Shown here piece by piece: positions 4,993 to 29,171 of a stretch of 36,235 bases of DNA; position 1 is the stretch's first letter; every line of letters starts with the position of its first letter. The notes below the pieces were generated by a model. It was not told the DNA's origin. It was given only the letters and a program-made list of their open reading frames with translations, and did not search any database. The translations under genes were made by a program, and so were the position numbers. Origin of the DNA: an uncultured Oscillospiraceae bacterium (GTDB lineage Bacteria > Bacillota > Clostridia > Oscillospirales > Oscillospiraceae); contig CANQBA010000041.1 of NCBI GenBank assembly GCA_947589545.1, forward strand, positions 1 to 36,235. The letters are read 5' to 3'.

Positions 4993-5036
4993 TCGTCACA
5001 GTGCTTCCCTACCCCGCATGTAAACACGATCCCCTT

Positions 5037-5056
5037 GGGGCCGCTTTCGCGGCCCC
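5037..5056. terminator. GC-rich hairpin after the SLH gene
   Basis: GGGGCCGC (5037-5044), loop TTTC and GCGGCCCC (5049-5056) form a perfect 8-bp stem 45 nt after the SLH stop codon. A run of G rather than T follows, so it is not a classical intrinsic terminator on the plus strand. It may still stop or stabilise the transcript. Confidence 0.4.
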
Positions 5057-5160
5057 GGGGGGGGGGAGCGTTGAATCCGGAACCGGAGCATATTCGATTC
5101 CGGCTTGAGCGCTCCGCACCCTGCGCGTCGCGCGCGAAGCGGCATTTGGAGGAACTACCA

Positions 5161-6891
5161 TTGAACGAAAAACTGATTAGATACCTTGTGGAGGCTGGGC
5201 TGATCACCCCGGAGCAGGCAAAAGAGCTCTGGGAGGAGCACCGCGGCGCCCGGCGGTCCGTCCGGGATCTGCTGGTGGAAAAGGCCCTTGTCCCGGAGGA
5301 CAGGATCGTGGAGGCCCTGTCCCAGCTGTCCCGCATCCCCCGGATCCGGCTCTACGAGACCGCCATCCCGCCGGAGGTTCGGCGGATGGTTCCCCCCGAC
5401 CTTCTCAGAACCAACCAGGTTCTGCCCTTTGACATAGACCCCGACGATCCCGGCGCTCTGCGGGTGGCCATCTGCGACCCCATGAACATGCGCGGCCGCG
5501 ACGTGGTGGCCCACACCACCAGAATGCGTGTCCGCCCCTATCTTGCCACCTCCGTGGATATCATGCGAACCATCGACCGCTACTTCGGCAGTCAGGAGAT
5601 GCAGGCGGCGGCGGAGCAGTTCAACGTGGCGCAGGTGGGCGAGACGCCCCACACGCTGGAGGAGGAGCTTCAGCAGGCGGACGTGAACGCCTCGCCGGTG
5701 GTGGTGCTGGTCAACTCCCTGGTGGAGCAGGCGGTGCGTATGCGCGCCTCGGATATCCACATCGAGCCGGGCGTGGATCAGGTGCGGGTGCGGTTCCGGG
5801 TGGACGGCGTTCTGTACCGGCGGGCCTCCTACGAGATGAACCTTCTGCCCGCCATCATCACGCGCATCAAGATCATCAGCGGTATGCGCATTTCGGAGAA
5901 GCACAAGCCCCAGGACGGAAGCTTCTCCCTCACGGTGGATCACCTGGAGTACGATCTGCGCGTGTCCACCCTTCCCACCACCTACGGTGAGAAATGCGTC
6001 ATGCGTCTTGCCCAGAAGCGGGCCTTGAGCCGCGACAAGGAGAGCCTCGGGCTTGTGGGCGAGGATCTGGAGAAGTTCGACAAGATCCTCGCCAGGCCCA
6101 ACGGCATCTTCCTGGTCACCGGGCCCACCGGCTCGGGCAAATCCACCACCCTCTACACGGCTTTGAGCGGCCTGAACAGCGAATCGGTGAACATCGTCAC
6201 CGTCGAGGATCCGGTGGAGGCCCACATCGACGGCGTCAACCAGATCCAGGTAAATCCCAAGGCCGACATGACCTTCGCCAACGTCCTACGCTCCATCCTG
6301 CGCCAGGACCCGGACATCATCATGATCGGCGAGATCCGCGACGGCGAGACGGCGGCCATCGCCGTCCAGGCGTCCATCACGGGACACCTGGTGGTCAGCA
6401 CCCTGCACACCAACGACACCGCCAGCAGCGTCACGCGTCTGCTGGACATGGGCGTTGAGAGCTTTCTCATCGCCGACGCCACCGTGGGCATCGTGGCCCA
6501 GCGCCTGGTGCGGCGGCTGTGTCCCAATTGCAAGCGATCCCGCCCCATGCTCCCCTACGAGGCCGACTATCTGAACGTCCCCGAGGAGGAGCGGGAAAAC
6601 GCCGTGCTGTGGGAGCCGGTGGGCTGTGCCCGATGCGGCAGCACGGGCTTTCTGGGCCGGATCGGCGTCTATGAGATCATGGAGATCACCCCGGCGCTGC
6701 GTGCGCTCATCGCCCGGCGGGCCTCCACCGACGAGCTTCGCGAGCAGGCCGTCCGCGAGGGGATGCACACCCTGCGGGAGAGCGCCAGCCGCCTGGTTCG
6801 GGAGGGGATCACACACATAGGAGAGCTGCACCGCATCAACATGGAGGGCGACTTCCCGGAGCCCTCCGGAAACGGGGAGAACAGGTCATGA
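5161..6891 (+). CDS. pilB: Type IV pilus assembly ATPase PilB (GspE/PilB family)
   Basis: PilB hydrolyses ATP in the cytoplasm to drive pilin subunits out of the membrane through the PilC platform. The TTG at 5161 is chosen as start because GGAGG (5148-5152) precedes it, and the protein then begins with an ordinary GspE/MshEN-type N-terminal domain (about 1-145); an upstream in-frame extension is low-complexity and lacks a ribosome site. The 576-residue product shows Walker A GPTGSGKS at about 321-328, Walker B DPDIIMIGE at about 383-391, a His box in TGHLVVSTLHTNDT, and a zinc-binding pair of CxxC motifs (Cys 454/457 and 489/492) typical of assembly rather than retraction ATPases. Its stop codon overlaps the pilT start by 4 bp (ATGA), indicating translational coupling. 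Confidence 0.95.
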   Translation: MNEKLIRYLVEAGLITPEQAKELWEEHRGARRSVRDLLVEKALVPEDRIVEALSQLSRIPRIRLYETAIPPEVRRMVPPDLLRTNQVLPFDIDPDDPGALRVAICDPMNMRGRDVVAHTTRMRVRPYLATSVDIMRTIDRYFGSQEMQAAAEQFNVAQVGETPHTLEEELQQADVNASPVVVLVNSLVEQAVRMRASDIHIEPGVDQVRVRFRVDGVLYRRASYEMNLLPAIITRIKIISGMRISEKHKPQDGSFSLTVDHLEYDLRVSTLPTTYGEKCVMRLAQKRALSRDKESLGLVGEDLEKFDKILARPNGIFLVTGPTGSGKSTTLYTALSGLNSESVNIVTVEDPVEAHIDGVNQIQVNPKADMTFANVLRSILRQDPDIIMIGEIRDGETAAIAVQASITGHLVVSTLHTNDTASSVTRLLDMGVESFLIADATVGIVAQRLVRRLCPNCKRSRPMLPYEADYLNVPEEERENAVLWEPVGCARCGSTGFLGRIGVYEIMEITPALRALIARRASTDELREQAVREGMHTLRESASRLVREGITHIGELHRINMEGDFPEPSGNGENRS

Positions 6892-7949
6892 CAAAGCTTG
6901 ACCAGGTGATCTCCCGGGCCCAGGAGCGCCGCGCTTCCGATATCCACCTGACCGTGGGCTTTCCCCCGGTACTGCGGGTGGACGGCGCCCTGGTCAAGGA
7001 CGACATGCCCCCCTTCACGCGGGAGGAGATGGAAGCCGCCTCCCGCGACCTGGCGGGGGAGGAGGGCATGCGGGAGCTGGAGCGGGACGGGGAGACCGAT
7101 TTCGCCGTCACGGTTCTTGGCAGTATGCGTATGCGCTGCAACATCTTTTATCAGCAGGGCGAGGCGGCCATGGCCCTTCGCCTGCTCCCCCTGACCGTAC
7201 CCACGGCGAAGGATCTGCTTTTGCCGCGGATCCTCATCGAACAGGCGGAAAAGCCCCGGGGGCTGGTGCTGGTCACCGGGCCTACGGGCTCCGGTAAGAG
7301 CTCCACCCTGGCGGCCCTTCTGGATCACATCAACCGGAGCTCCCGCCGCCATATCATCACGCTGGAGGCCCCCATCGAGTACGTATACAAGCCCATGAGC
7401 TGCGTCATCCACCAGCGGGAGGTGGGCCGGGATACCGGCAGCTTCGCCGCCGGACTGCGCGCCGCCCTGCGGCAGGATCCCGACGTGATCCTGGTGGGCG
7501 AGATGCGCGATTTGGAGACGATCTCCACCGCCATCACCGCCGCCGAGACCGGGCACCTGGTGTTCGGGACCCTGCACACCAAGGGCGCGGCCAACACAGT
7601 GGATCGCATCATCGACGTGTTCCCCGCCGAACAGCAGGAGCAGATACGCATCCAGCTGGCGGACGTGCTGGAGTGCGTCATCGGCCAGACGCTGCTGCCC
7701 AGGATCGGCGGCGGACGGCGGGCCGTCTTTGAGATCATGGTGGGGAGCGCCGCCGTAAAGAGCCTGATCCGGCAAAACAAGTCCTTCCAGATCCCCAACG
7801 CCATGCAGACGGGGAAGAAGCAGGGGATGGCCCCGCTGGACGACGCCCTGGCGGCCCTGGTTCGCGCCGGGGAGGTTTCGGCTAAGGACGCCGCCGCCGC
7901 GGCCAACGACCCGGACACGGTGGCCGCCGTGGAGCGTGTCAGATTATAG
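6888..7949 (+). CDS. pilT: Type IV pilus retraction ATPase PilT
   Basis: The 353-residue product is a PilT-type hexameric ATPase that powers pilus disassembly and twitching. It has Walker A GPTGSGKS (about 131-138), Walker B DPDVILVGE (about 197-205) and the His box TGHLVFGTLHT. It lacks the MshEN domain and zinc cysteines of PilB, and it is near the usual PilT length of about 350. The AIRAGK-like segment of PilT, needed for retraction in studied species, is represented by LIRQNKSFQIPNAMQ. It overlaps pilB by 4 bp. Its TAG stop codon (7947-7949) lies within the first bases of the inverted-repeat element at 7945-8378, so the 3' end of the gene may have been set by that insertion. Confidence 0.94.
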   Translation: MTKLDQVISRAQERRASDIHLTVGFPPVLRVDGALVKDDMPPFTREEMEAASRDLAGEEGMRELERDGETDFAVTVLGSMRMRCNIFYQQGEAAMALRLLPLTVPTAKDLLLPRILIEQAEKPRGLVLVTGPTGSGKSSTLAALLDHINRSSRRHIITLEAPIEYVYKPMSCVIHQREVGRDTGSFAAGLRAALRQDPDVILVGEMRDLETISTAITAAETGHLVFGTLHTKGAANTVDRIIDVFPAEQQEQIRIQLADVLECVIGQTLLPRIGGGRRAVFEIMVGSAAVKSLIRQNKSFQIPNAMQTGKKQGMAPLDDALAALVRAGEVSAKDAAAAANDPDTVAAVERVRL

Positions 7950-8378
7950 CTGACGGGAGTCGAACCCACGCCGGTTTTCGACGGCTGATTTACGCCAGTA
8001 CTTTGTCAAAAGCCTTGACAATACGCAAGTATTCTCTGCGGCTTTTTCCGTGTCCTGACGCAAATCAGCTCGCCGAAAACCGCACAGCACTCCACGGGTC
8101 GCCATTTTCGAGGGATTTTTGCCGCGAAGGAGGAAGCCTTGGGTTCCCAGTGCGATTTCGATCGCATTGGGAAAGGAGAAGCGAACCGTGCGCCTGAGGG
8201 CGATTGGGATCCCCGTGCGCCTGAGGGCGATTGGGATCCCCGTCGGGCTGTTGCCCGACGGGGAGAGGACGTCCGACGCCTGCGCCTGAGCCCGAATACT
8301 TGGAGGGCAAGGTTAAGCGGCGTCGGTAAGGACGAGGGCCCGCGTGGAGCGACGTGGGTTCGACTCCCGTCAGCTATA
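7945..8378. other. 434-bp structured non-coding element with perfect 26-bp terminal inverted repeats
   Basis: This fills the pilT-pilC gap. The ends 7945-7970 and 8353-8378 are perfect 26-bp inverted repeats; each reads as GGGTTCGACTCCCGTCAGCT on one strand, closely resembling the T-arm and acceptor end of a tRNA or tmRNA. Inside are nested or serial stems: 7974-7994 with 8059-8080 (two short mismatched patches), 8008-8014 with 8040-8046, 8020-8024 with 8029-8033 closing a GCAA tetraloop, 8146-8155 with 8162-8171, 8238-8248 with 8253-8263 (11 bp, perfect), and 8274-8280 with 8319-8325. No convincing protein is encoded. The ends could be read as TA-flanked, as in a MITE. It could be a mobile non-autonomous element, a structured RNA in the pil transcript, or both. 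The repeats are certain, the function unknown. Confidence 0.75.
8187..8240 (+). repeat. Two identical tandem 27-bp units
   Basis: 8187-8213 and 8214-8240 are identical 27-nt units beginning CGTGCGCCTGAGG and ending GGGATCCC. They lie inside the structured element between pilT and pilC and run directly into its strongest hairpin (8238-8263). An exact tandem duplication suggests recent slippage or a repeated structural module. Confidence 0.9.
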
Positions 8379-8391: not shown

Positions 8392-9609
8392 TTGCCCGCT
8401 TTTACATATACCGCTATCAACACCACCGGCAAGCGCGTCAACGGCTCCATCGAGGCCGCCACGCTGGATATGGCGAAAAGCTCCCTGCGGGGCGTGGGCT
8501 ATACCATCGTGGACATCCGGTCCCCCAGCCTCTTCGAGCGCGAGCTCAACGTGCCCTTCATGGGGCGGCCCTCCTCCAAGGATATGGCTATCTTCTGCCG
8601 GCAGTTCATCTCCATCCTCCGGGCGGGGGAGTCGCTGTCCATCGTGCTGTCCCTGCTGAGCCAGCAGACCGAGAACAAGCAGCTGGCCGCCGCCATCCGC
8701 GTGATCCAGACGGACGTGGAAAAGGGCGAATCCCTGGCCGGAGCCATGCGCAAGCAGCAGAAGATATTCCCGTCCATGATGGCCAACATGGTGGAGGCCG
8801 GCGAGAACTCCGGAAACCTGGAGGACTCCTTCCGGCAGATGGAGGTCTACTTTGAAAAGGCCCGGCGCACCAAGAGCGCCGTGACCAAGGCCATGATCTA
8901 CCCCTGCATCCTGCTGGTGGTGATGGTCATCGTGCTCATCGTGATGATGACCACCATCATCCCCTCCTTCATGGAGACCTTCGACCAGCTGGACGTGGAG
9001 CTGCCCGCCCTGACCAGGGGCGTCATGGCCGTCAGCAATTGGTTCGTCAAATGGTGGATGGTGCTGGTGGGCGTGATCGCGGGACTGGTCGTCTCCGCCG
9101 TGCTGTTTGGCCGCACCGTCAAGGGGCGCCACTTCTTCGGCTACATCGCCCGCAAGGCGCCGGTGTTCGGGCGGCTCACCGTCCGCTCCGCCTGCGCCAC
9201 GGCCACCAGGACCCTGTCGCTGCTCCTGGGCTCCGGCCTTACCCTGCTGGAGAGCATCGACCTGACCGCCGCCAACATGAGCAACATCTGGTTCGAGGAC
9301 GCCCTGCGCACCGTCTCGAGCCTTGTCTCCCAGGGCTGGTCCCTGGCCGTGAGCCTCAGAGACACGGGGCTGTTCCCGCCCATGGTGTCAAACCTTGTGA
9401 TGGTGGGCGAGGAGGCCGGCGACCTCCAGGGCTCCCTGGCCAAGATCGCCGACTACTACGACGACGAGGTCAAGGACGCCACCGACCGCCTCCTGGCCCT
9501 TCTGGAGCCGGCCATCATCCTGCTGATGGCGGGGATGGTGGTGGTCATCGTCCTGTCCATCTTCCTGCCCATGCTGGCCATGACCCAGGGCTACGACCAA
9601 TACCTGTGA
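8392..9609 (+). CDS. pilC: Type IV pilus inner-membrane platform protein PilC (GspF family)
   Basis: PilC is the polytopic membrane platform on which PilB and PilT act to insert or remove pilins. The 405-residue product has the family's usual length and its two repeated GspF-type domains. Membrane segments are visible at about 165-190 (ILLVVMVIVLIVMMTTII), 220-242 and 375-400 (IILLMAGMVVVIVLSIFLP), and both domains contain the GE-x-SG or GEEAG signature (EAGENSGNLE; GEEAGDLQGSL). The TTG start at 8392 follows AGGAGGG (8378-8384), which overlaps the final base of the preceding inverted-repeat element. The gene is separated from pilT by that 434-bp element, so expression of pilC relative to pilB and pilT may depend on it. 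Confidence 0.93.
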   Translation: MPAFTYTAINTTGKRVNGSIEAATLDMAKSSLRGVGYTIVDIRSPSLFERELNVPFMGRPSSKDMAIFCRQFISILRAGESLSIVLSLLSQQTENKQLAAAIRVIQTDVEKGESLAGAMRKQQKIFPSMMANMVEAGENSGNLEDSFRQMEVYFEKARRTKSAVTKAMIYPCILLVVMVIVLIVMMTTIIPSFMETFDQLDVELPALTRGVMAVSNWFVKWWMVLVGVIAGLVVSAVLFGRTVKGRHFFGYIARKAPVFGRLTVRSACATATRTLSLLLGSGLTLLESIDLTAANMSNIWFEDALRTVSSLVSQGWSLAVSLRDTGLFPPMVSNLVMVGEEAGDLQGSLAKIADYYDDEVKDATDRLLALLEPAIILLMAGMVVVIVLSIFLPMLAMTQGYDQYL

Positions 9610-9743: not shown

Positions 9744-10205
9744 ATGAAGAATTTCAACAAGAGGATGGCCGCCCGTGAGGGCTTCACACTGGTGGAGCTC
9801 ATTGTGGTCATCGCCATCCTCGCCATATTGGCCGCCGTCTCGTATCCCGCGTATACGGGGTATATCAAGAAGGCCGATGAGACAGCTGACATTACCAATC
9901 TCGCAGGCGTATACACTGCCGCCTCGGCTGCTATGGCTGCGGACGGCAGTTTCTCCGGGCTCACGAGTATTGTGGTTAGCAGCGATGGAAAGACGGTGAC
10001 AGTGAACGGTACTGTTCTTTTTGGTACTACGTCTGGTGGTACGAAAGAAGCCACGCAAGCTCAGCAGGATACTTTCAAGCTTTTGTATTTTGGTGATACT
10101 TCTTCCACGGCGGATACTGTTGTGGAATTCAAAAGTGACACGTACAGCACTAGTGGGGCTACTTGGACGAAAGAAAATAATAAATGGGCCCCCACGACCG
10201 CGTAA
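9744..10205 (+). CDS. pilA: Type IV major pilin (PilA-like)
   Basis: The 153-residue prepilin has a short basic leader ending in Gly13, then the canonical class III cleavage and helix motif FTLVELIVVIAILAILAAV with Glu at mature position 5. PilD would cleave after Gly13 and methylate the new N-terminal Phe. The mature C-terminal domain (about 115 residues) is small, rich in Thr, Ser and Gly, and has no cysteine. Its size, dedicated upstream gap and place directly before pilD make it the best candidate for the major fibre subunit. Start ATG 9744 is preceded by GAGAAAGGA. The 134-bp gap before it (9610-9743) contains a GC-rich palindromic patch (GGGCCC at 9663 and 9686) and an AT-rich stretch, but no clear promoter. 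Confidence 0.9.
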   Translation: MKNFNKRMAAREGFTLVELIVVIAILAILAAVSYPAYTGYIKKADETADITNLAGVYTAASAAMAADGSFSGLTSIVVSSDGKTVTVNGTVLFGTTSGGTKEATQAQQDTFKLLYFGDTSSTADTVVEFKSDTYSTSGATWTKENNKWAPTTA

Positions 10206-10300: not shown

Positions 10301-11053
10301 ATGAGCCAACTTGCGCTGTGCTTCCTGGCCCTCATTGGACTTTGCGTGGGGAGCTTTTGCAACGTGCTCATCTACCGTCTCCCCCTGGGGGAGGACTTCG
10401 TCAGGATCCGCTCCCACTGCATGAGCTGCGGACACGTGCTTTCCTGGTACGAGCTGATCCCCGTGGTCAGCTTCCTTGTCCAGCGGGGCCGGTGCCGGGC
10501 TTGCGGGGCCAGGCTGTCCCTCCAGTACCCGGCGGTGGAGCTGGCAAACGCGGCGGCGTGGCTTGCGTGCGGCCTGCTTTTCCGGGGCGACCCGCTGCGG
10601 GCCGCGCTTTACTGCGCCATGTCCTCCCTGCTCCTGGTGGCGGCGGTCGTCGACGGGCGCACCCTGGAGATCCCCAACGGCCTGAATCTGGCGATGCTGC
10701 TGCTGGGCGCCGTCCAGCTGGCGGCGGACGTCTGGCACTGGCCGGACTACCTCATAGGCTCCGTGTGCGTGAGCCTGCCCCTGCTGCTGCTCCATCTGGC
10801 CTCCGGCGGCGCCATGATCGGCCTGGGGGACGTGAAGCTGCTGGCGGCGGCGGGACTGCTGCTGGGGTGGCGGAGGATCCTGCTGGCCCTGGCGCTGGGG
10901 AGTATCATCGGCACGGCGGTACACCTGGCGCGGATGTGCCGGGGCGCCGGCCGCCGGCTGGCCTTCGGGCCGTATCTGGCGGCGGGGATCTGGCTCTCCG
11001 CCCTGCTGGGCGACCGCGCCATCGCGGCCTACCTGAGCCTTCTCGGGGTCTGA
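10301..11053 (+). CDS. pilD: Prepilin peptidase / N-methyltransferase PilD (A24 family)
   Basis: PilD is an inner-membrane aspartic protease that removes prepilin leaders and methylates the exposed residue. The 250-residue product has the N-terminal LCVGSFCNVLIYRLP motif, a zinc-type pair of CxxC motifs (CMSCG near residue 45 and CRACG near 66) in the methyltransferase loop, and both catalytic aspartates: one in VVDGRTLEIPN and one in GLGDVKLLAAAG. Multiple hydrophobic helices fill the rest. The ATG at 10301 follows AAGGAGATGAG. It should process the five prepilin-like proteins encoded downstream and upstream in this locus. Confidence 0.95.
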   Translation: MSQLALCFLALIGLCVGSFCNVLIYRLPLGEDFVRIRSHCMSCGHVLSWYELIPVVSFLVQRGRCRACGARLSLQYPAVELANAAAWLACGLLFRGDPLRAALYCAMSSLLLVAAVVDGRTLEIPNGLNLAMLLLGAVQLAADVWHWPDYLIGSVCVSLPLLLLHLASGGAMIGLGDVKLLAAAGLLLGWRRILLALALGSIIGTAVHLARMCRGAGRRLAFGPYLAAGIWLSALLGDRAIAAYLSLLGV

Positions 11054-11162
11054 GCCGCCGCTGAAAATAATCCGCAAAGAGAGACATACCCGCGGACGCC
11101 GCAGAACCGGCCGGGCCATGCCGGCCGGCTGTGCCGTATCCGCGTGTAACGAGGTTTTAGCT

Positions 11163-14100
11163 ATGAAAATCAAAAAGAAATTATCCGGACGCGCCCTGGT
11201 CGTCCAGCTTTGCAGCCAGGAGCTGCGCGTCGCCAGTATGAAGCTGGGCTCCGTGCCCAAGCTGAAAACCCGCGTGGTTCGTCCCCTGCCCGAGGGCGCG
11301 GTGGAGGACGGAGCCATTCTGGATCCGGACGCCCTGCGGGAAGCGCTCAAATCCGCCCTGACGGAGCCGGGGATCAGGCACGTCAGGAACGTGGTGTTTA
11401 CCCTGTGCTCCTCCCAGGTGCTGTCGGAGACGGTGGCCGTCCGAACCGTCAAGAGCAGGCGCTCCTCCGGTTCAGCGGAGGATCGGCTGATGGAAAAGAC
11501 CCTGGACACCAACCGGGACATGTATTTTCCCGTGGACACCCGCGGAAGCCGCCTGGTCTGGACCCCCGTCGGCATCCTTGACGACGAGGACGGAAGCACC
11601 TCCCGGTCCGTACAGCTCTGGGCGGTACCCAACGCCCTGGTGGAGGAATACTACAAGCTGGCCAACTCCTGCGGCCTGAAGGTGCTGGCGGTGGACTACT
11701 GCGGAAACAGCTTCACCGGCCTTGTGAGGGCCGGATACGCCGCCCCGGCCCCCTCCGGGAAAAAGAAGGGAAACAAAAAGACGCCCTCCAAGGGCCGGAA
11801 GGCCCCCGTTACCGGCGCGCCCGCCGGGGAGGAGCGGCCAAAGGAGACGGTCCTCTATCTCCTCCCGGAGGAGGACTTTCTGCTGATGACCTTTGTCCGC
11901 GACAGGCAGGTGACGCACCAGCGGCTGCTGAACCGCGGCAGCTCCTATATGGATGAGCTGGAGGACGCCCGGATGGTGCTGGAGCTCTATGAGACCGAGC
12001 ATTCGGGCGGCGGGGACATCCTCGTGGCTGTCTGCGGCGCCGGCGCCCGGGATCCGGAGTATGTGGAGCGGGTGGAGGAGGCTTTGAACCTCCCCACGAC
12101 GGCCCAGACGGGAGCGTCCGCGGACGAATGGTGCCTGTGCGCCGGCGCGGCCGTAACGCGGCTGGACTTCGGCGACCCGGCCCTGAACTTCCCCGGGCGG
12201 CCCAATCTGCTCCAGAAGTTCTGGCAGTACGGCCTCCTTCTGGCGGGCGGCGGGCTTCTGGCTCTGACAGTCCTCCAGTTCCTCGGGGATTCGCTGGACT
12301 GGAGCACAACCCTGAACAGGAAGGAAAGCGCGCTGGGCAATCTGCAGGATTCGCTGGCGGACGTCAGCGGCTTCAAGCAGAACTGGGAGGATTATGAGGC
12401 TTACTACTTCAACTACGCCGCCGACTGGCGCACCCTGCTGGGCTCCGACGAGGAGGGATCCGAGAGCGTCGGCGCCCTGCGCACCTACAATGACAACCTG
12501 TCCCTGATGCTGAGCGAGCTGGAGCAGATCCTTCCCGACGGCGTCAGCGTCACCGAGATCGGCATCGCCCCGGAGGGGCTGGGCCTGCAGATCGCCTGCG
12601 AGGACAAACAGACGGCGGCCTACGTCATCCTGACCCTGCGCTCCCTGCAATACGGGGAGGAGCCGACGTATATCTCCGACCTGACGATCGGCCCCGGCGT
12701 GTCGGCTTTTTCCGTACTCTCCTCCCTGGCCCAGGCCACCGGCTCCCCCGAGGCGCCCCCCACCGAGGGCAGCTCCAACAACTCGGCGGACGTCTTTGAA
12801 GGCAGCGGCCTGTCGTCGGACGACCAGAGCACGCTGACGGAAATATCCGAAAAGCTGGCACGCGGCGACACGGTCTCCAACCGCGAGATGGAGAGCGTCA
12901 AGGAGATCCTCGGGGACGTGAGATCGGACAGCAAGCGGATCGAGATCGCCAGAGCCATGTGCGCGGGCACAAACGCCGGCAACACGGAAATCACGTATTC
13001 GCTGGATCAGGTCATAAGAGTTTCCTCCGTCGCCCAGAGGAAGAACGGGTTCAAGCGTATGCTTGGCAACCCCTTCGCCCTCTATCTGTTTGCCGAGCTG
13101 GTTCGGGCGGATATCGAATCCGGCAATTCCACGATGCGTGACGACCTCGAGACGTTCTGCTGGGATCATTTCGACGAAGACTGGTTCAAGGCGATCTTCT
13201 CCGCCCGTGACCTTCAGGCCATCGCAAAGGGGGACTACAGCTCGCTCACGGACGCCAGCCTGACGGATATGCAGACCCTTCTCATCCGTTTTATCGACGA
13301 TAAGTACCAGACCGACGACGAGTATTACTATCGGTGCGAGGAGCTTGTCAAGAGCGACCCGACGCTCAGAGGCGTCCTGACCTACTATATCTGTGTGGAG
13401 AAAGGACTGCCCCTGACCGTTTCCGAAGACTCCGAGACCGACCCGGAAACCGGCCTCGACATTGACCCGCTCACCGGGCTTCTGATCGACCCGGACGACG
13501 ACAGCCTTCTTTTCGATAAGGTCAACCGCCTGTACGTGGATAAGGCCACAAACGAGTACATCTACCCGAGTACCGGCACGCTCTTTGATCTGAGCTCCGG
13601 CCTGTATATCGACAAAAAGACAAAGAAGCTGTACGACCCGCAGACCGGAGAGGATCTGGATCCGGCCACCGACATGAGAATGGCCAAGTACACATGGCCC
13701 CTGAGGACGCAGCTTGAGGAGCAGGATCGGGATATCTCCGAGCTCGACTGGAGCAAGATCGACTGGACCCCCATCACCTGGAGAACCATGTCGGTGGACG
13801 AAGTGGTCGATACGCTGCGCCGGCAGGCCGAGAAGCTTCTGAAGGTCAACGTGACCATCGATCCGGATACCGGCCTCGTTGTCGATTCCAAGACCGGCCT
13901 TCTCTACGAGCCGAACACCGGCCTCTATATCGATCCCGACACGGGCCGTCTGGTGGACGCTGACGGAAAAGCCATTGACCCGCTGACGGACAGCAGGCTC
14001 TCTCAGTTCATGAAGTATCTGCCCATGGTCGGGCAGTTCACGGGCCTGAACACGGACGCGATCGACTGGACCAAGATCGACTGGCGCAAGTTTGACTGGT

Positions 14101-14924
14101 CAAATCTCGCGTCCATGGATAACGTTATGGAGCTTATAAAGCAGGTCAAGGATTTGTCGTCGGGCGACCTTCCCGGCATCGGCGACCTTCCCGGCATCGG
14201 CGATCTTCCCGGCATCGGGGATCTTCCGGGCGGCGCCGGAACCGGCTTCGTCGTGGATCCGGTCACCGGCCAGCTGAAGTACGCGGATACCGGGGAGCTC
14301 GTGGATCCCTCCGCCGATCCGAAGCTGGAGGGGCTGGTGGGTATGCTGGAGCAGTATCTTGGCGTGGATCTCGACGATTTTGACTGGAGCACCATCGACT
14401 GGCGGGATATCAACATCGACAACCCGGGCCAGGCGGACGCGGCCAAACTGATCCAGCAGATCTATGCCAATCTGAACGGCCAGACCCCCGAAACCGGCTT
14501 CGTTGTGGATCCGGCTACCGGCCAGCTGAAGTACGCGGATACCGGGGAGCTCGTGGACCCCTCCGCCGACCCGAAGCTGAAGGAGCTGGTGGGTATGCTG
14601 GAGCAGTATCTCGGCGTGGATCTCGACAATTTCAACTGGGGCGCCATCGACTGGCGGGATATCAACATCGACAATCCGGGCCAGACGGACATGTACAATC
14701 TGCTCCAGCAGATCTACGCCAATCTGAACGGTCAGACTCCCGGCGGCGGCGGACTTCCGGGCATCGGGGATCTGCCGGGCGGCGGCGGCGAGGCGGTAGA
14801 CACCCGGATCTTCTTCACGGTATCCATTCCCTATAAGGAGTCGCTGATCCAGGCCGAGATGGAGCGCAAGGGCCTTTCACGCGATGAGATACGGGAAGAG
14901 CTCGATCTGGAGGATTATCAATGA
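11163..14924 (+). CDS. GspL-like PilM-PilN fusion with giant extracytoplasmic repeat arm
   Basis: PilM is normally a cytoplasmic actin-like protein and PilN a separate single-pass membrane protein; together they align the pilus machine. Here both appear in one 1253-residue chain, as in GspL of type II secretion. Residues 1 to ~350 are PilM-like, ~355-377 form a transmembrane helix (LLLAGGGLLALTVLQFLG), and ~380-510 look like the PilN coiled-coil plus ferredoxin-like domain. A Ser/Thr/Pro-rich linker (~520-545) leads to a helical region (~545-750), then a long arm of TG-x-x-x-DP and DW-x-x-IDW repeats (~755-1210). The start at 11163 is preferred over an in-frame ATG at 11118, since it begins MKIKKKLSGRALVVQ like PilM and has a GAGG site; this is not certain. 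The stop overlaps the next gene by 4 bp. The arm is several times longer than any usual PilN periplasmic domain. Confidence 0.8.
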   Translation: MKIKKKLSGRALVVQLCSQELRVASMKLGSVPKLKTRVVRPLPEGAVEDGAILDPDALREALKSALTEPGIRHVRNVVFTLCSSQVLSETVAVRTVKSRRSSGSAEDRLMEKTLDTNRDMYFPVDTRGSRLVWTPVGILDDEDGSTSRSVQLWAVPNALVEEYYKLANSCGLKVLAVDYCGNSFTGLVRAGYAAPAPSGKKKGNKKTPSKGRKAPVTGAPAGEERPKETVLYLLPEEDFLLMTFVRDRQVTHQRLLNRGSSYMDELEDARMVLELYETEHSGGGDILVAVCGAGARDPEYVERVEEALNLPTTAQTGASADEWCLCAGAAVTRLDFGDPALNFPGRPNLLQKFWQYGLLLAGGGLLALTVLQFLGDSLDWSTTLNRKESALGNLQDSLADVSGFKQNWEDYEAYYFNYAADWRTLLGSDEEGSESVGALRTYNDNLSLMLSELEQILPDGVSVTEIGIAPEGLGLQIACEDKQTAAYVILTLRSLQYGEEPTYISDLTIGPGVSAFSVLSSLAQATGSPEAPPTEGSSNNSADVFEGSGLSSDDQSTLTEISEKLARGDTVSNREMESVKEILGDVRSDSKRIEIARAMCAGTNAGNTEITYSLDQVIRVSSVAQRKNGFKRMLGNPFALYLFAELVRADIESGNSTMRDDLETFCWDHFDEDWFKAIFSARDLQAIAKGDYSSLTDASLTDMQTLLIRFIDDKYQTDDEYYYRCEELVKSDPTLRGVLTYYICVEKGLPLTVSEDSETDPETGLDIDPLTGLLIDPDDDSLLFDKVNRLYVDKATNEYIYPSTGTLFDLSSGLYIDKKTKKLYDPQTGEDLDPATDMRMAKYTWPLRTQLEEQDRDISELDWSKIDWTPITWRTMSVDEVVDTLRRQAEKLLKVNVTIDPDTGLVVDSKTGLLYEPNTGLYIDPDTGRLVDADGKAIDPLTDSRLSQFMKYLPMVGQFTGLNTDAIDWTKIDWRKFDWSNLASMDNVMELIKQVKDLSSGDLPGIGDLPGIGDLPGIGDLPGGAGTGFVVDPVTGQLKYADTGELVDPSADPKLEGLVGMLEQYLGVDLDDFDWSTIDWRDINIDNPGQADAAKLIQQIYANLNGQTPETGFVVDPATGQLKYADTGELVDPSADPKLKELVGMLEQYLGVDLDNFNWGAIDWRDINIDNPGQTDMYNLLQQIYANLNGQTPGGGGLPGIGDLPGGGGEAVDTRIFFTVSIPYKESLIQAEMERKGLSRDEIREELDLEDYQ
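14163..14234 (+). repeat. Four 18-bp in-frame units (G-I-G-D-L-P repeat)
   Basis: Units at 14163, 14181, 14199 and 14217 encode a GDLPGI-type hexapeptide; the fourth is degenerate. It forms a flexible Gly/Pro linker between modules of the extracytoplasmic arm, and a further GLPGIGDLPG lies near 14752. Identical codons in the first two units suggest recent slippage. Confidence 0.9.
14241..14744 (+). repeat. Tandem 252-bp (84-residue) in-frame duplication
   Basis: 14241-14492 and 14493-14744 encode near-identical 84-residue modules. Each has a TG-rich segment (GFVVDP-x-TGQLKYADTG), an acidic helix (GMLEQYLGVDL), a DW-type motif and a Gln-rich helix (QQIYANLNGQTP). Two more degenerate modules precede them, at about 13629-13850 and 13944-14162, showing stepwise expansion. 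Confidence 0.92.
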
Positions 14925-15550
14925 AGAAGTTCCTGGCAAAATACTGGATAGCGCTTTTCGCGCTGATCCTGTTCGGCGCGGCGGCTTACGTGATTTTCAT
15001 GCTTTACAAGCCCGAAAAAGCGGAGTATGAGACAAACGACCGCCTCCTTGACACCCAGATATCCAACGTTCAGGCGCAGATCAACGACAACAGGCAGTAC
15101 GCCGGCGTCCAGGACGTTCTGGAGGGCGAGGAGAAGGCCCTGGACGAGAGCCGGCTGGCGCTTTACAAGGCGTTCCCCGGCGAGATGAAGGAGGAGGATC
15201 AGATCCTCTACATCCTCTATCTGGAGGAGCTGTTCGGAAACGACATCACCTTCAGCTTCGGAACCGAGAGCGATGTCATCACCCTCAACGACGGCTCCGA
15301 TCTGAAGGTTCTGACCCTCACGGTCAACTACGAGACGAACTATCAGGGCTTCAAGGACATGATCGACCGTCTGGCGACCGACGACACGTATATCACCTCC
15401 GTCCAATACTGCACGTTGAGCTACGACTCCGAAACGGATACCGCCACGGGCACCGTGACGTTGGTGCGGTATCTGCTGGATTACGGGCAGGAGTACCAGA
15501 GTCCCGACGTGGACGGCCCGGGCGGCGGCGGCGGAACCATTTTTGACTGA
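14921..15550 (+). CDS. PilO-like type IV pilus alignment protein
   Basis: The 209-residue protein has a short cytoplasmic tail, one transmembrane helix at about 9-31 (WIALFALILFGAAAYVIFML), a coiled-coil segment (~40-90) and a compact alpha/beta domain ending about residue 190. This is the standard layout of PilO, which pairs with PilN on the outer face of the membrane. Sequence identity to known PilO cannot be judged by eye, so the call rests on topology, size and position directly after the PilM-PilN fusion, with which it overlaps by 4 bp. It ends in a Gly-rich tail. The name pilO is withheld for that reason. Confidence 0.75.
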   Translation: MKKFLAKYWIALFALILFGAAAYVIFMLYKPEKAEYETNDRLLDTQISNVQAQINDNRQYAGVQDVLEGEEKALDESRLALYKAFPGEMKEEDQILYILYLEELFGNDITFSFGTESDVITLNDGSDLKVLTLTVNYETNYQGFKDMIDRLATDDTYITSVQYCTLSYDSETDTATGTVTLVRYLLDYGQEYQSPDVDGPGGGGGTIFD

Positions 15551-15560: not shown

Positions 15561-15908
15561 ATGAAGAAAAAGCGCGTCAATGGAAAAGAAGGCGTCACCC
15601 TGGTGGAGGTGCTGGTGGCGATCACCGTTCTCGGTATCGTCACCGCCGCCCTGGGGGGCAGCCTGGTCGTCTCCAACCGCATCAACAGCCGGAGCGAGCA
15701 GATCATCAAGGATCGCCTGGCCGTCTCCAGCGCGGTGGAGACGTTGATGGCCAAGGGGATACATGATACAACTGATACAACATCTGACGACGATCTCGAA
15801 GTCAAAATCGACACTACCAGTGATTCCACTTGCTACAAAGTGACCGTTAAAAGCAAAGACGGCGAGGTGTCTGTCGAAACCTACATCCGCCCCGCTGACA
15901 CCACTTAA
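15561..15908 (+). CDS. Minor pilin / PilV-type prepilin
   Basis: The 115-residue prepilin has a basic leader ending KEG and the cleavage-helix motif VTLVEVLVAITVLGIVTAALGG, with Glu at mature position 5. The start at 15561 is chosen over an in-frame TTG at 15543 because GAGG lies 12 nt upstream and the leader then has normal length. The ~80-residue remainder is a small hydrophilic domain. Its position first in a run of three minor pilin-like genes resembles the order seen in minor pilin operons that prime fibre assembly (family knowledge). Exact class (PilV or PilI-like) cannot be assigned. Confidence 0.85.
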   Translation: MKKKRVNGKEGVTLVEVLVAITVLGIVTAALGGSLVVSNRINSRSEQIIKDRLAVSSAVETLMAKGIHDTTDTTSDDDLEVKIDTTSDSTCYKVTVKSKDGEVSVETYIRPADTT

Positions 15909-15925: not shown

Positions 15926-16342
15926 ATGAAAAAGAACAATGGCGGCTATGTGCTGGCCTATGTGATGATCGTGATCACGGTAGTGTCGGCCATGGCCCTG
16001 GCGGTCGGCTCCGTGGCTGTGCGAAACCTCCAGGTTCAGGAGGCGGCGGTCGAGAGGATGCAGGATCTGTACGCGGCCGAGGGGGAGATCGAGAGGTTCC
16101 AGGCGTGGGTGAAGGGGAAAGAATTTGATGAGGGCACAATAAAAAGCTTTCCCATGGGCAATTCACAAACCGATCCCACCGTTACGGTGGAAGTTGACAA
16201 AACATATAAAAAAATCACCGTCACCGCAAAAGCCAGAAACACGACAGTGACCGCCGTGATGGAGGTCGAAGTTGATAGTAGCAATAGCACAGTCAAACAA
16301 ATAAATAAATACCAATCCTACAACATAACCGCTACGCAGTAA
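15926..16342 (+). CDS. PilX/GspK-like minor pilin lacking Glu5
   Basis: The 138-residue product starts with a very short leader (MKKNNGG) followed by YVLAYVMIVITVVSAMALAV, a pilin-like hydrophobic helix in which the usual Glu at mature position 5 is replaced by Ala. Absence of this Glu and the following AAEGEIERFQAW-like segment are features of PilX and GspK, which sit at the fibre tip. The C-terminal part is a small beta-rich domain with no cysteine. GGAGG (15911-15915) precedes the ATG, and the gene follows the previous one by 17 bp in the same operon. Confidence 0.78.
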   Translation: MKKNNGGYVLAYVMIVITVVSAMALAVGSVAVRNLQVQEAAVERMQDLYAAEGEIERFQAWVKGKEFDEGTIKSFPMGNSQTDPTVTVEVDKTYKKITVTAKARNTTVTAVMEVEVDSSNSTVKQINKYQSYNITATQ

Positions 16343-16361: not shown

Positions 16362-17453
16362 ATGAAAAACAGTAACGGCGGCTTTACGCTTGTGGAGCTT
16401 CTGGCAACAATAGCCGCCACGTCCATTGTGACGTTGGCGGCTATGTCATTTTTGCTGGTATGCTTCCGCCTGTGCGCCTCGGCCCAGGCCACCGCGGGCG
16501 AGCAGGAAACCTCCCGCATCGTCCTGACGCTGATGGAGGATCTGGTCAGTGAGGGGAGCATAACGAAGGTAGAAAATACAGGTTCTCAGTGGAATCTGTG
16601 TGGCAAAAAGGATAACGACGATGTTGTTCTGCTTACATACTCTGGAGACGATCATACGCTTTCAGCCGGCGGCTCGGTCATTATGGAGGGTGTGGAGGAC
16701 TTTAGCGCTGCGTTGGATAATGTCAATAAAAAACTCCTTACCATAACCCTCAAAACAGAGAACGGGAAGGAGTATACGACCTCCGTCTACTGCAGAACCA
16801 CCGAAATAAATGATGATCCAACAAAACCCGCCTCCTTCAACTTCAATACCGGCATTGTGGGCCGGGTCTACGGCAGATCCTCCGCCGCCGGCGCCGCAAA
16901 CGCCCGGGCCTACGGCATCTCCAACGACGAGTGGATCGCCCGTCTGGCCCTGATCGCCAATCTGGATCTCCAAATCGGCAGCACCGGCAAGATCCTCAGC
17001 GGCGACGATGAGGGGAAGTATTTCTCCGAATGGTACATCGGCGGCTATGACGCGGCCCATCCCGGCTGGAGCAAAAACACCCCCTGGTGCGCCTGCTTCG
17101 TCTCCTGGGGGATCGCCCAGGTTCGCGATTCGTTGGACAGGACGCTGTCCTTCTCCGACGTGGACGCCGGCGTTAAGCGGCTGCGGAGCGGCGAAAACGG
17201 CGCCTGGCTGGATCCCGGCGCCGCCCCCATCCCCGGGGATCTGATCTTCTTCGACTGGGACGAGGATCCGGATCCGGACTACGACAGCGCCGCCGACCAC
17301 GTGGGCGTGTTCCTCATGCAAAGGGATGGCCGCGTCTACTCCATCGAGGGGAACACCGACGGCCGGGTCGCCGTGCGCAATTACGCCCCGGACGACCCCC
17401 GCATCCTGGGCTATGGCCGGTTGAAGTGGAAATCGTCATCCGGCGCGGATTGA
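16362..17453 (+). CDS. Pilin fused to a CHAP peptidoglycan hydrolase domain
   Basis: The N-terminus is a class III prepilin signal: leader MKNSNGG, then FTLVELLATIAATSIV with Glu at mature position 5. A PilW/PilJ-like minor pilin domain spans about 8-150. From about 180 to 360 the chain is a CHAP (NlpC/P60-superfamily) domain that hydrolyses peptide bonds or amides in peptidoglycan. The catalytic set is visible: Cys243 in PWCACFVSW, His313 in DHVGVF and Glu329 or Asn331 in SIEGN. The GDLIFFDWDED block and the GYGRLKW end are also family-typical. All catalytic residues are present, so an active enzyme is expected. A wall hydrolase carried on a pilin is unusual; it probably acts where the pilus crosses or touches peptidoglycan. 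It sits in the minor pilin operon, 19 bp after the PilX-like gene. Confidence 0.88.
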   Translation: MKNSNGGFTLVELLATIAATSIVTLAAMSFLLVCFRLCASAQATAGEQETSRIVLTLMEDLVSEGSITKVENTGSQWNLCGKKDNDDVVLLTYSGDDHTLSAGGSVIMEGVEDFSAALDNVNKKLLTITLKTENGKEYTTSVYCRTTEINDDPTKPASFNFNTGIVGRVYGRSSAAGAANARAYGISNDEWIARLALIANLDLQIGSTGKILSGDDEGKYFSEWYIGGYDAAHPGWSKNTPWCACFVSWGIAQVRDSLDRTLSFSDVDAGVKRLRSGENGAWLDPGAAPIPGDLIFFDWDEDPDPDYDSAADHVGVFLMQRDGRVYSIEGNTDGRVAVRNYAPDDPRILGYGRLKWKSSSGAD

Positions 17454-17476: not shown

Positions 17477-17887
17477 ATGGAAAAGCAGGACTATCAAACC
17501 TACATGACCCCCGGCGCCTACGAGGCGCTGGTCTCCGAGGCGGGGGCGCTGCTCCGGGCCGGAGAGACGGCGGAGGGCGTCGTGGACAGGCTGCTCCCGA
17601 TGATCGCCTCCTCTTTGGAGGAGGGGCGCAAGGCGCGCCATAAGGAGGCCCAGGCCAACGGGATCCGCCACGCCAGGGAGGCCGGCGTCCCCCTCGGCCG
17701 CCGTCCCACGCCCCTGCCCGCCAACTTCCCGGACGTGGTCAGGCTGTACCGGGAAGGGGCCATCACCTCCGACGCCGCCGCGAAGCTGTGCCGTATGGCA
17801 AAAAGCACCTTTTTCTTCCGCATGAAGGAGTACGAGGAGGCAAAACGCGCCCTCCGGGCCGATGAACGCGAGCCGGCCCTGAAATAG
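17477..17887 (+). CDS. Small DNA-binding protein resembling the C-terminal part of a serine resolvase
   Basis: The 136-residue product has an acidic helical N-terminal half without enzyme motifs and a C-terminal segment (about 75-125) that follows the linker plus helix-turn-helix pattern of serine resolvases: GIRHAREAGVPLGRRP, then LYREGAITSDAAAKLCRM and STFFFRMKEYE. The catalytic resolvase domain, including its active-site serine region, is absent. The start at 17477 is set by GGGAGG ten bases upstream; the ORF could extend to 17426 but without a ribosome site. Placed between pilin genes in the same direction, it may be a recruited regulator of the pilus genes (inference). Confidence 0.68.
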   Translation: MEKQDYQTYMTPGAYEALVSEAGALLRAGETAEGVVDRLLPMIASSLEEGRKARHKEAQANGIRHAREAGVPLGRRPTPLPANFPDVVRLYREGAITSDAAAKLCRMAKSTFFFRMKEYEEAKRALRADEREPALK

Positions 17888-18357: not shown

Positions 18358-19851
18358 ATGAAACGAAATTCTTCAAATCGTAAATATAACAGCGGCTTCA
18401 CGCTGGTGGAGCTGATCGTCGTGATCGCCATTCTGGCGATCCTCGCCGGCGTCGGCGCGCTGGGGTACGGCGCGTACATCGAGTACGCCAAAAAAGGGCA
18501 GGACAAAGCGCTGGTGGGAGAGGTCATGCACGCCTTTGAACTTGCGAACTACTCCAACCCCAATCTCTTTGCGGAGGGTGATTCCGCGACGTTCTACTTT
18601 ACGTCAAGCGGCGCAAAGGTCCTCAAAAGAACAGGTCAGGAGGATCTCAAAAAATCTCTGGAGGACGCTCTGGGCGATTTGGACAGCCTGTCCCTGACGT
18701 ATCAGGACTGGAAACCTACCAGTTTAGGCGGCACCGCCATGTTTGATCTTCTTTCTTCGAAGGATCTGCAGGATCTCGTAGATAATCCAAATTCCAGCTA
18801 TTACCAATATTTGGCTGCGGGGGGCACGGCATCCTATGCCAATGAAATGCCGGAACTGTGGGAGGCTGTTGAAAAAAATCTGGACGCACGTTCTCAAAAA
18901 GACATACTTCAACGGGTTATAAAGTTTAGCACAAACGCTGACGCGGTTCCGGGAATAAAGGAAAAATGGCAGAAAAAAGAGCAGCTGACGATGGGAATTA
19001 CGGGGCTTACCGGTAACGAGGGCCTTGCCTTGGAGGTAGCCCGCAACTACGCTTTTGCCGCCTTTGTAGAGGGAAAGTATGGAAATCAACTCACAGGCGA
19101 GATGAAGAAAACGCTGAATGGATTGAAAACAACCAATGGATTGTTGTCAGGTATTTATTACGATCAATGCGATGGTTCAGAATGGACTATCAACGGGGTC
19201 AATGTTGTCGATGACTATATTAACACGCAGGCCGAGGCCGACGTGCTGGCGTATCTGGCTCTGATGGAGAGCGTCAATACAGTCATGTACACGGATGAAA
19301 ATGATTTAAAGGAAAAAGTATCTGCGGTAGTAGACGGCATCGCTCCTTTGATGAATAAGAGCGTGGATCCATCATCGTATAACAATTTTCTCGGAGATTT
19401 AGGCTCGACTGGCAGCGTTGTCGGCTTTAGCATGACGAAAACCAACGGCGTTCTTGTTCCGTCGAATTTCTCCGACCCGGATCTGAACCCGAGGGGTTCG
19501 GGGAGCGACAGCACGGCAAGCAGCGGATGCACACAGAGCAATCATTCTTCCAGCGCGGAAACACTGACCTTTAGCGGAAGTTCTTCTAATTATACGGCGA
19601 ACAAAACGATTGAACTCTGCAGGACGAGCGGAGTGCAAGAGTGCAAACTTACGATACGTAACTATACTGATACAGGTGACTTAGTGTTTACTGCGGACAA
19701 CGTTAAGAATAGTAATTCCGATCTTGTCGAGTTTGATGTAGCCACAAAGACTGTGAAGATAAAAGGTGAAGGCAGTGGTTTTGCAACAATAACAATAACT
19801 GTTAAATCACTTCCAAGTAAGACCTATACCTTTACAGTTAATGTCCATTGA
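18358..19851 (+). CDS. Oversized type IV pilin with C-terminal Ig-like domain
   Basis: The 497-residue prepilin has leader MKRNSSNRKYNSG and the motif FTLVELIVVIAILAILAGVG with Glu at mature position 5, so it is a substrate for PilD. Unlike a fibre pilin (usually 130-180 residues), it continues with a ~380-residue, largely helical domain and ends in a ~90-residue beta-rich module (about 405-497; VEFDVATKTVKIKGEGSGFATITITV) resembling bacterial Ig-like (BIG2) domains. Cysteines near 400, 427 and 435 could form a disulphide. Size and architecture suggest a tip adhesin or a decorating pilin. It has its own promoter, and the stop at 19851 is followed by a 112-bp gap with no clear terminator. Confidence 0.85.
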   Translation: MKRNSSNRKYNSGFTLVELIVVIAILAILAGVGALGYGAYIEYAKKGQDKALVGEVMHAFELANYSNPNLFAEGDSATFYFTSSGAKVLKRTGQEDLKKSLEDALGDLDSLSLTYQDWKPTSLGGTAMFDLLSSKDLQDLVDNPNSSYYQYLAAGGTASYANEMPELWEAVEKNLDARSQKDILQRVIKFSTNADAVPGIKEKWQKKEQLTMGITGLTGNEGLALEVARNYAFAAFVEGKYGNQLTGEMKKTLNGLKTTNGLLSGIYYDQCDGSEWTINGVNVVDDYINTQAEADVLAYLALMESVNTVMYTDENDLKEKVSAVVDGIAPLMNKSVDPSSYNNFLGDLGSTGSVVGFSMTKTNGVLVPSNFSDPDLNPRGSGSDSTASSGCTQSNHSSSAETLTFSGSSSNYTANKTIELCRTSGVQECKLTIRNYTDTGDLVFTADNVKNSNSDLVEFDVATKTVKIKGEGSGFATITITVKSLPSKTYTFTVNVH

Positions 19852-25832: not shown

Positions 25833-27329
25833 ATGGAACTTTTAAATTACGACACCCTGCAAAAATCCGGCTACACGGGCTACATACTCAAGGACGCCCC
25901 TGAAAAGGTCATGCAGTTCGGCGAAGGCAACTTCCTGCGGGCATTTGTCAACTACTGGTTCGACGTCTCCAACGAGAAGGTGGGCTGGAACGGCAAGTGC
26001 GTCCTCATACAGCCCATCGCCATGGGCCTTACCAAGCTCATCAACGCCCAGGAGGGCCTCTACACCCTCTATCTCCGGGGCAACGAGAACGGGGAGAAGA
26101 TCGACCGCAAGCGGGTGATCTCCTCCGTTTCCAGGTGCCTCAACCCCTATGAGAAAGAGGGCTTTGACGCCATGATGGCCCTGGCCGTCAGCGACGATCT
26201 GGAGTACGTGGTCTCCAACACCACCGAAGCCGGCATCGTCTACGATCCCGCCTGCCAGATCTCCGACGCGCCCTGCTCCTCCTTCCCCGGCAAGCTGACC
26301 CAGGTGCTCTTTACCCGGTATAAGGCGGGGAAGGGCGGCCTTGTGATCCTCTCCTGCGAGCTCATCGACAATAACGGCAAGGAGCTTCAGAAGTGCGTCA
26401 ACCAGTACATCGACCAGTGGGGCCTGGACGACGGCTTCAGATCCTACGTCAATCAGGACTGCACCTTCTGCTCCACTCTGGTGGACCGCATCGTCCCCGG
26501 CCGCATCCGCGACGCCGCCGAGGTGGCGAAGCTGGAGGAGCAAAACGGCTACCACGACGAGCTCATCGACGTGGGCGAGGTCTTCGGCGTTTGGAACATC
26601 GAGGGGCCGGAGTGGCTGGCGGAGAAGCTGCCCTTCAAGGCCGCCGGGCTCAACTGCCCCGTGGTGCCCGACGTGACCCCCTATAAAAAGCGCAAGGTGC
26701 GCATTTTGAACGGCGCCCACACCGGCTTCGTGCTGGGCGCGTATCTGGCGGGCTTCAACATCGTCCGGGACTGCATGGAGAACGACACCGTCCGGAGCTT
26801 CATGAACAAGATGCTCTACGACGAGGTGATCCCCACCCTGCCCCTGGACAAGAAGGATCTCACCGACTTTGCCGCCGCGGTGCAGGATAGGTTCAACAAC
26901 CCCTTCGTCAACCATGAGCTCATGAGCATCAGCCTCAACTCCACCTCCAAGTGGCGCGCCCGCAACATGCCCAGCTTCCTGGAGTATGTGGAGCTGAAAA
27001 AGGCCCTGCCTCCCTGCCTCACCGCCTCCTTCGCCGCCTACATCGCCTTCTACTCCACCGATATCCAGGAGCTTTCCGACAAGGGTCTGGTGTGCAAGCG
27101 CGCCAAGGGCAACACCTACGTCTGCTCCGACGACCGCTGGGCGCTGGAGTTCTACTGGGAGCACAGGAACGACGATGACGCGACCCTCGTCCACGCCGTC
27201 ATGACCAACGAGCAGATGTGGGGCCAGGATCTCACCCAGGTTCCCGGCTTCGAGGCCGCCGTTGTGGAGCTTTTAAAGAAGATCAGAGCCGAGGGCACGC
27301 TGGCGGTGTACGCCGGCGCGGTGAAGTGA
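25833..27329 (+). CDS. uxaB: Tagaturonate reductase (altronate oxidoreductase)
   Basis: UxaB reduces D-tagaturonate to D-altronate with NADH, the second step of galacturonate breakdown in the cytoplasm. The 498-residue length and layout fit the long-chain mannitol dehydrogenase family: an N-terminal Rossmann domain (VMQFGEGNFLRAFVNYW, the family nucleotide-binding start), then CTFCSTLVDRIVPG and VRILNGAHTGFVLGAYL, which carry the conserved Lys/Asn-x-x-His active-site region. Mannonate-type UxuB proteins have a different N-terminal pattern, so the tagaturonate call is preferred. ATG 25833 follows AGGAGGAG. The next gene starts 9 bp after the stop, so uxaB and uxaA form one unit. Confidence 0.92.
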   Translation: MELLNYDTLQKSGYTGYILKDAPEKVMQFGEGNFLRAFVNYWFDVSNEKVGWNGKCVLIQPIAMGLTKLINAQEGLYTLYLRGNENGEKIDRKRVISSVSRCLNPYEKEGFDAMMALAVSDDLEYVVSNTTEAGIVYDPACQISDAPCSSFPGKLTQVLFTRYKAGKGGLVILSCELIDNNGKELQKCVNQYIDQWGLDDGFRSYVNQDCTFCSTLVDRIVPGRIRDAAEVAKLEEQNGYHDELIDVGEVFGVWNIEGPEWLAEKLPFKAAGLNCPVVPDVTPYKKRKVRILNGAHTGFVLGAYLAGFNIVRDCMENDTVRSFMNKMLYDEVIPTLPLDKKDLTDFAAAVQDRFNNPFVNHELMSISLNSTSKWRARNMPSFLEYVELKKALPPCLTASFAAYIAFYSTDIQELSDKGLVCKRAKGNTYVCSDDRWALEFYWEHRNDDDATLVHAVMTNEQMWGQDLTQVPGFEAAVVELLKKIRAEGTLAVYAGAVK

Positions 27330-27338
27330 GGTGACACG

Positions 27339-28823: not shown

Positions 28824-28828
28824 CTGGC

Positions 28829-28855
28829 TTGAAAGGCCGCAAAGCGGCCTTTCAA
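28829..28855 (+). terminator. Hairpin ending the uxaB-uxaA unit
   Basis: TTGAAAGGCCGC (28829-28840), loop AAA and GCGGCCTTTCAA (28844-28855) form a perfect 12-bp stem six bases after the uxaA stop codon. It has no strict U-run, but position and strength suggest transcript termination or 3' end protection. Confidence 0.65.
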
Positions 28856-28868
28856 TGCCAAGGGGAAA

Positions 28869-28993
28869 AATTTTCTCTGAATTTCGCAAAATTCAGAGAA
28901 AATTACCCTGCCGTCGCCCTGCGTGCGTCCCGAAGGGACACACTAAGGGCGACAAAAGGGATTTTTCCCGACGCGCATGTCGCCGGGAAAAAT
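28869..28993. repeat. Cluster of three further strong hairpins between uxaA and kdgA
   Basis: Stems are 28869-28884 with 28889-28904 (16 bp, perfect, AT-rich), 28913-28920 with 28946-28953 (8 bp, with an inner GTCCC/GGGAC), and 28961-28970 with 28984-28993 (10 bp, perfect). With the hairpin at 28829 they fill most of the 348-bp gene-free stretch. No reading frame here looks real. They may be REP-type repeats or a structured RNA. Confidence 0.7.
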
Positions 28994-29062
28994 ATCGAAT
29001 TTGAGTTTTTTGACAAGCTGCATATCCGTTGCCTTTCGCTTTTTTGACGGAAAATCCATGCC

Positions 29063-29097: not shown

Positions 29098-29171
29098 GGA
29101 TAGTAGAAACGTCCGGCCCGCTCCGGGGCCGGGTTGACTGAAAAATCAATACATACAGGAGGGAACCAACC

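Follow-up and report, generated by a model that had tools for sequence, protein, structure and literature searches.

How does a type IV pilus pass through the wall of a bacterium that has a single membrane and no secretin? A 2019 review counts the crossing of the mesh-like monoderm peptidoglycan (PG) by type IV pili among the open questions, with a speculation on an enlarged PilO (PMC6916266). The question is raised again by a 36,235-nucleotide (nt) contig of an uncultured Oscillospiraceae bacterium (CANQBA010000041.1; the whole stretch is called the window below), in which a pilus locus holds a gene joining a minor pilin to a CHAP domain, the fold of many PG hydrolases. This locus makes wall crossing in monoderms directly testable, since Cys243 of the predicted enzyme and an insert in the pilus-base protein PilN could be removed separately.

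A minor pilin and a CHAP domain in one protein

The gene and its parts are as follows.

16362..17453, + strand: predicted fusion of a J-type minor prepilin with a CHAP/NlpC-P60 peptidase, 363 amino acids (aa), in a single ATG-to-stop frame
16362..16829, + strand: pilin module, residues 1-156 (class III leader, helix 10-64, beta head 67-143)
16830..16901, + strand: linker, variable in length and sequence across homologues, with residues 145-178 of low confidence in the model
16902..17450, + strand: CHAP/NlpC-P60 module, residues 181-363, with Cys243-His313-Glu329-Asn331

A Pfam search of the 363-aa protein returned only two domains above cut-off, N_methyl at residues 3-28 (23.4 bits against a curated cut-off of 21.2) and CHAP (PF05257) at residues 238-331 (29.8 bits against 26). 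The CHAP module stayed below the TIGR02594 cut-off (25.1-27.6 bits against 70.55). The leader reads MKNSNG/GFTLVE, so that Gly7 precedes Phe8 and Glu12 corresponds to Glu5 of the mature pilin, and Cys243, His313, Glu329 and Asn331 make up a complete catalytic set in the sequence. The original prediction, made from the nucleotide sequence without database searches, had placed a prepilin signal and a full CHAP domain with these four residues in one frame, and this was borne out.

In the AlphaFold model (mean predicted local distance difference test [pLDDT] 65, predicted template modelling score [pTM] 0.54), the helix, beta head and low-confidence linker are followed by a papain-like C-terminal domain; pLDDT drops to 36-44 along part of the long N-terminal helix. 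In a fold comparison, the pilin half of the model matched the minor pseudopilins XcpW and EpsJ, which are J-type tip pilins, as expected of a J subunit. The CHAP enzyme would thus probably sit at the pilus tip. XcpW, EpsJ and ComGF are without a catalytic module; the fusion pilin was kept out of the ComGF family because it scored 25.3-28.5 bits against a curated 80. With a class III signal carrying Gly and Glu5, and a predicted long N-terminal helix and beta head, the protein has the features of a type IV pilin, and since a linker connects its pilin module to a domain that is not peculiar to type IV pili, it also counts as a modular pilin.

We then searched with the whole protein (genus, 34 genomes; family, 400) and with a profile of the pilin half in the genus (34) and in overlapping samples of the family (400), order (394) and class (311). 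Profile matches with E 1e-17 or better were taken as orthologues; weaker ones were not counted (2 of 10 genomes in the genus, 16 of 29 in the family, 4 of 11 in the order and 20 of 21 in the class). The CHAP-pilin fusion was present as 17 genes in 16 genomes from three families. Nine of these genes belong to the window and seven further genomes of its genus, and the other carriers are G314, G278, G267, G190, G120, G180, G512 and G564. The same operon slot, with the minor pilin gene mp1 directly upstream and also mp2 where it was recognised, is occupied in 16 of the 17 cases; in G278 the contig begins too near the fusion gene for its upstream neighbours to be judged.

An artefact joining two genes, one of the refuting conditions named with the original prediction, has a negligible probability. 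Seventeen open frames in 16 genomes carry the identical join and form a single clade, which rules out a frameshift, a chimera or an error of assembly or annotation. A chance CHAP match was likewise ruled out by the fold match and by Pfam, in which N_methyl and CHAP each matched all 14 aligned homologues with an E value no higher than 0.01. Thus, the fusion is real and conserved. As to homologues with the two parts separate and unlinked, which would tell against the prediction, the profile matched a plain pilin in five genomes (G179, G074, G222, G162 and G632), and no separate CHAP gene lies beside these pilins in flanking stretches of 5 to 19 kb. Next to one of them (G179, locus L147, 4531-5926), inspection by eye showed a signal-peptidase-like protein and a TasA/CalY-like secreted protein, which may belong to another kind of surface fibre system.

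Conservation of residues was assessed in the fourteen aligned fusions plus those of G512, G564 and G180. Cys, His and Asn were kept in all 17, and Glu in 16, being replaced by Asp in one of the two G024 copies (G024a); in G017, the catalytic His is present within a motif reading EHVG. Gly7 and Glu12 of the pilin signal were invariant among the aligned homologues, and the linker between the modules was highly variable. This pattern bears on the idea that the CHAP fold does not cut but serves in adhesion or in binding to the wall. Binding domains are indeed found on modular pilins of Streptococcus sanguinis (PMC8179133), but Cys, His and Asn have been retained throughout amid fast change elsewhere, and we consider a non-cutting module very improbable.

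In a tree with 72 other CHAP domains, the 17 fused CHAPs formed one clade (support 100/99). No sampled CHAP fell inside it and no donor was found among the 72, a set biased by its collection by similarity to the fused CHAP; the single clade therefore does not exclude other origins. Two non-fused CHAP loci of this set were inspected, and both adjoin ATPases of conjugation, another envelope-crossing machine. In the pilin tree, the fused pilin of G314 was sister to the plain pilin of G179 with strong support, indicating at least one loss or gain of the CHAP module since the two parts were first joined.

A PilN domain that accompanies the fusion

The second element of interest lies upstream, in the protein that links PilM to PilN.

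11118..14924, + strand: PilM-PilN fusion protein, 1268 aa; PilM and PilN matches under the Pfam cut-off
12687..14804, + strand: large insert in the ectodomain of PilN, separating the PilN core from the C-terminal strand
12747..13421, + strand: homologous helical domain of the insert; all helical in the model, pLDDT 79

The helical domain was found in all 14 fused loci with a complete PilM-PilN and was missing from all five plain-pilin relatives and from the 12 assessable distant loci. Left out were G278 and the two G024 loci, in which PilM-PilN is cut by the contig end. Two of the 14 distant loci were excluded (G292, whose frame is truncated at the end of its contig, and G254, with a 359-aa frame covering the PilM part only), and in three others (L198, L200 and L201) no downstream pilin-profile match was seen, although minor pilins may be present there unseen. 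In the loci compared, the CHAP pilin and the PilN insert thus co-occur without a counter-example, and the helical domain tied to the CHAP pilin is a new linked domain of the pilus base. A literature search found nothing on a PilM-PilN insert. PulL of the type II secretion system also joins PilM to PilN (PMC10191384) but differs from the present protein, whose large PilN insert goes together with the CHAP pilin.

Two side observations concern these regions. Around window positions 13860-13949 (approximate), Tyr-x-Asp-Pro-x-Thr-Gly repeats in the insert score as an OCRE domain (62 bits). In G024, two versions of a cassette of mp1, mp2, CHAP pilin, large pilin and PilD lie on two contigs (L028 and L029) that both begin in mp1, and PilM-PilN is broken by a contig end; this is either a duplication of the cassette or a mixture of strains.

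Exit hole, neighbouring cells or a tethered enzyme

The original prediction proposed that the pilus carries its own wall-opening enzyme, either for its exit hole or for action on neighbouring cells. The conserved fusion and intact catalytic set support the first part, and the choice it left between the two uses now tilts to the exit hole, given the change in PilN that tracks the fusion. We lean, with modest confidence, towards a J-type minor pilin of the tip complex that bears its own PG endopeptidase and opens the cell's own wall, in an assembly machine adapted through the PilN insert. We infer separately that the enzyme is active, that it stands at the tip, that its target is the cell's own wall and that the insert contacts it. 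PilD would process the CHAP prepilin, and the processed J pilin would enter the priming or tip complex alongside mp1 and mp2. Polymerisation of pilins beneath could push the tethered CHAP domain, enzyme first, into the wall, where it might cut stem peptides or cross-links and so open a passage for the pilus. The PilN insert, fixed to the membrane in the wall space, may dock to the wall, or guide or restrain the enzyme. More tentatively, the CHAP tip pilin and the inserted PilN domain might be one module, gained or lost as a unit, for crossing a monoderm wall without a secretin.

Secretin was indeed not found in the source genome, by a search whose control detected one in 6 of 14 named genomes. 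This is as expected for a one-membrane cell. The pil operon itself has PilB, PilT, PilC, PilD, PilM-PilN and a PilO-like protein.

The chief rival is that the pilus presents CHAP to neighbours and thereby lyses or weakens them, whether to compete or to release and take up DNA. The baseplate CHAP domains of diffocin and phi812 belong to contractile tail machines aimed at a target cell, a difference from the present pilus. Against an attack on neighbours here, a change in PilN at the base of the machine goes along with the enzyme, and no potential immunity gene is common downstream: no shared gene was found across the 15 loci with enough DNA when at most four frames of at least 45 aa within 2.6 kb were compared. 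For these two reasons the exit hole is favoured over attack on neighbours. Moreover, LytF, a CHAP enzyme of competence in S. sanguinis, showed no fratricide (PMC13192262). We regard a weapon at the tip as unlikely.

A third possibility is that the pilin part merely tethers the enzyme near the pilus machine, so that the wall is loosened without entry of the enzyme into the filament. Processed pilins remain in the membrane before assembly (PMC8179133), the PilN insert occupies the same compartment, and the same exit-hole function would result. However, the J-like head and Glu5 have been retained, which goes beyond the needs of an anchor, and we give this possibility only a small chance.

Several observations weigh against an enzyme at the tip that opens the cell's own wall. 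Only three sequences underlie the pilin part of the model, and mainly-pilin matches made up 7 of the 50 rows listed in the fold comparison. The contrasts between presence and absence of insert and CHAP that are independent number two on supported branches (three on all), which puts significance out of reach. The five plain-pilin relatives operate a machine of this type with no CHAP on the pilin and no CHAP gene alongside, and the enzyme is therefore not generally required. Finally, in two of four close pairs (G024a-G024b and G015-G024a), the linker-CHAP part was 61-66% identical at the aa level and the pilin head 71-76%, and in a third (G190-G120) linker-CHAP was slightly more diverged than the whole pilin half (93.8% versus 96.6%). 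An enzyme acting on a single, fixed substrate of its own cell would not be expected to show this greater divergence of linker-CHAP. The remaining pair, the window and G031, had suggested that CHAP is always the conserved part (97.7% identity versus 62.5% for the head); this idea was dropped, as two pairs are clearly opposite and the third slightly so.

Comparison with known systems places an exit-hole pilin between ideas that are separately known. The published class of modular pilins comprises 264 architectures, among them some with predicted S74 and M26 peptidases (PMC8179133). We found no CHAP in the main text of that paper, nor a CHAP-bearing pilin elsewhere in the literature; its Dataset S1, which lists the 264 architectures, lies outside this search and may contain one. 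S. sanguinis PilB, with a von Willebrand factor A (vWA) domain, and PilC, with a lectin, likewise consist of a pilin module with a grafted domain, belong to a monoderm type IVa pilus and were proposed to be displayed at the tip, but their modules bind ligands, unlike the predicted peptidase here (PMC8179133). CHAP-aided exit is also on record: in S. sanguinis, LytF helps the Com pilus to leave the cell, and the authors of that work suggest that the enzyme may associate with the pilus or widen pores (PMC13192262). LytF is thus likewise a CHAP hydrolase that raises extracellular pilus in a monoderm; it differs in being a separate, secreted, competence-induced protein with Bsp repeats, not fused to a pilin. 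Above the Pfam cut-offs, the present protein showed no Bsp repeats before the CHAP domain and neither a rod-cap nor a glycoside hydrolase domain.

These last two domains are those of dual-domain FlgJ, which joins a cap at the growing tip to a PG hydrolase for wall crossing by a filament, and whose two functions reside in separate proteins in other bacteria (PMC8517470). FlgJ is flagellar, non-homologous and a glycoside hydrolase, whereas the CHAP pilin has a cysteine peptidase/amidase fold; it is the closest working parallel, as a functional analogue only. The suggestion that the system is undescribed holds in part: modular pilins and CHAP-aided exit were already published, a combination of pilin and CHAP in one subunit was not found in the literature searched, and the link to the PilN insert is new. 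If the favoured reading is true, a wall-cutting function would be added to the modular pilins, in parallel to FlgJ, and a new domain of the pilus base would be named. The locus is also a caution that CHAP matches in gut genomes are not necessarily phage lysins or conjugation enzymes. In PMC11076991, CHAP stands in a prophage/type IV secretion system context.

The surrounding locus

The CHAP pilin gene closes the minor-pilin run of a full type IV pilus locus, whose other members are listed here.

5035..6891, + strand: PilB extension ATPase (TIGR02538, 551 bits, under the cut-off of 675.65)
6888..7949, + strand: PilT retraction ATPase (TIGR01420, 449 bits, over the cut-off)
8392..9609, + strand: PilC/GspF-like platform protein (GspF, 331 bits, under the cut-off of 424)
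9744..10205, + strand: major pilin, by size and place
10301..11053, + strand: PilD prepilin peptidase, by sequence and position
14921..15550, + strand: PilO-like protein, by position and conservation; no family match
15561..15908, + strand: minor pilin mp1, with an ATG at 15561 (the listed frame begins with TTG at 15543)
15926..16342, + strand: minor pilin mp2, without Glu5, by sequence and by related frames in the same place in other loci
17477..17887, + strand: small protein resembling the DNA-binding end of a DNA invertase, 23 nt past the CHAP pilin
18358..19851, + strand: large second pilin, 497 aa

Among PilB, PilT and PilC, only PilT passed its family cut-off. Absence of Glu5, as in mp2, is a trait of K-type tip pilins. 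From PilM-PilN through the small gene after the CHAP pilin, neighbouring genes overlap or lie less than 25 nt apart. No forward terminator-like site was listed between 12705 and 17963, in a scan that as a whole gave no clear excess over shuffled sequences. The small protein at 17477-17887 matches only the DNA-binding end of an invertase (phrog_125, E 2.8e-5), directly follows the fusion gene in 3 of 15 loci and is possibly a regulator.

Comparison of the window with G031 (L022) showed most of the machinery to be 95-100% identical in 100-nt bins. In the pilin genes (9744-10205, 15561-15908, 15926-16342, 16362-16901 and 18358-19851), the N-terminal part was near identical and the head strongly changed, the major pilin having 29% aa identity beyond residue 40. 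This looks like an exchange of pilin heads. Between PilT and PilC (7945-8378) lies a segment of some 330-370 nt that is not in G031, bounded by a 29-nt inverted repeat (97%) and containing a 27-nt tandem repeat; the inverted repeat resembles the 3' end of a tRNA by eye, and no tRNA gene was called. Further downstream (25833-33858), the reading frames resemble by eye a set for hexuronate breakdown, with altronate dehydrogenase and dehydratase, 2-keto-3-deoxygluconate (KDG) kinase and aldolase, and glucuronate isomerase.
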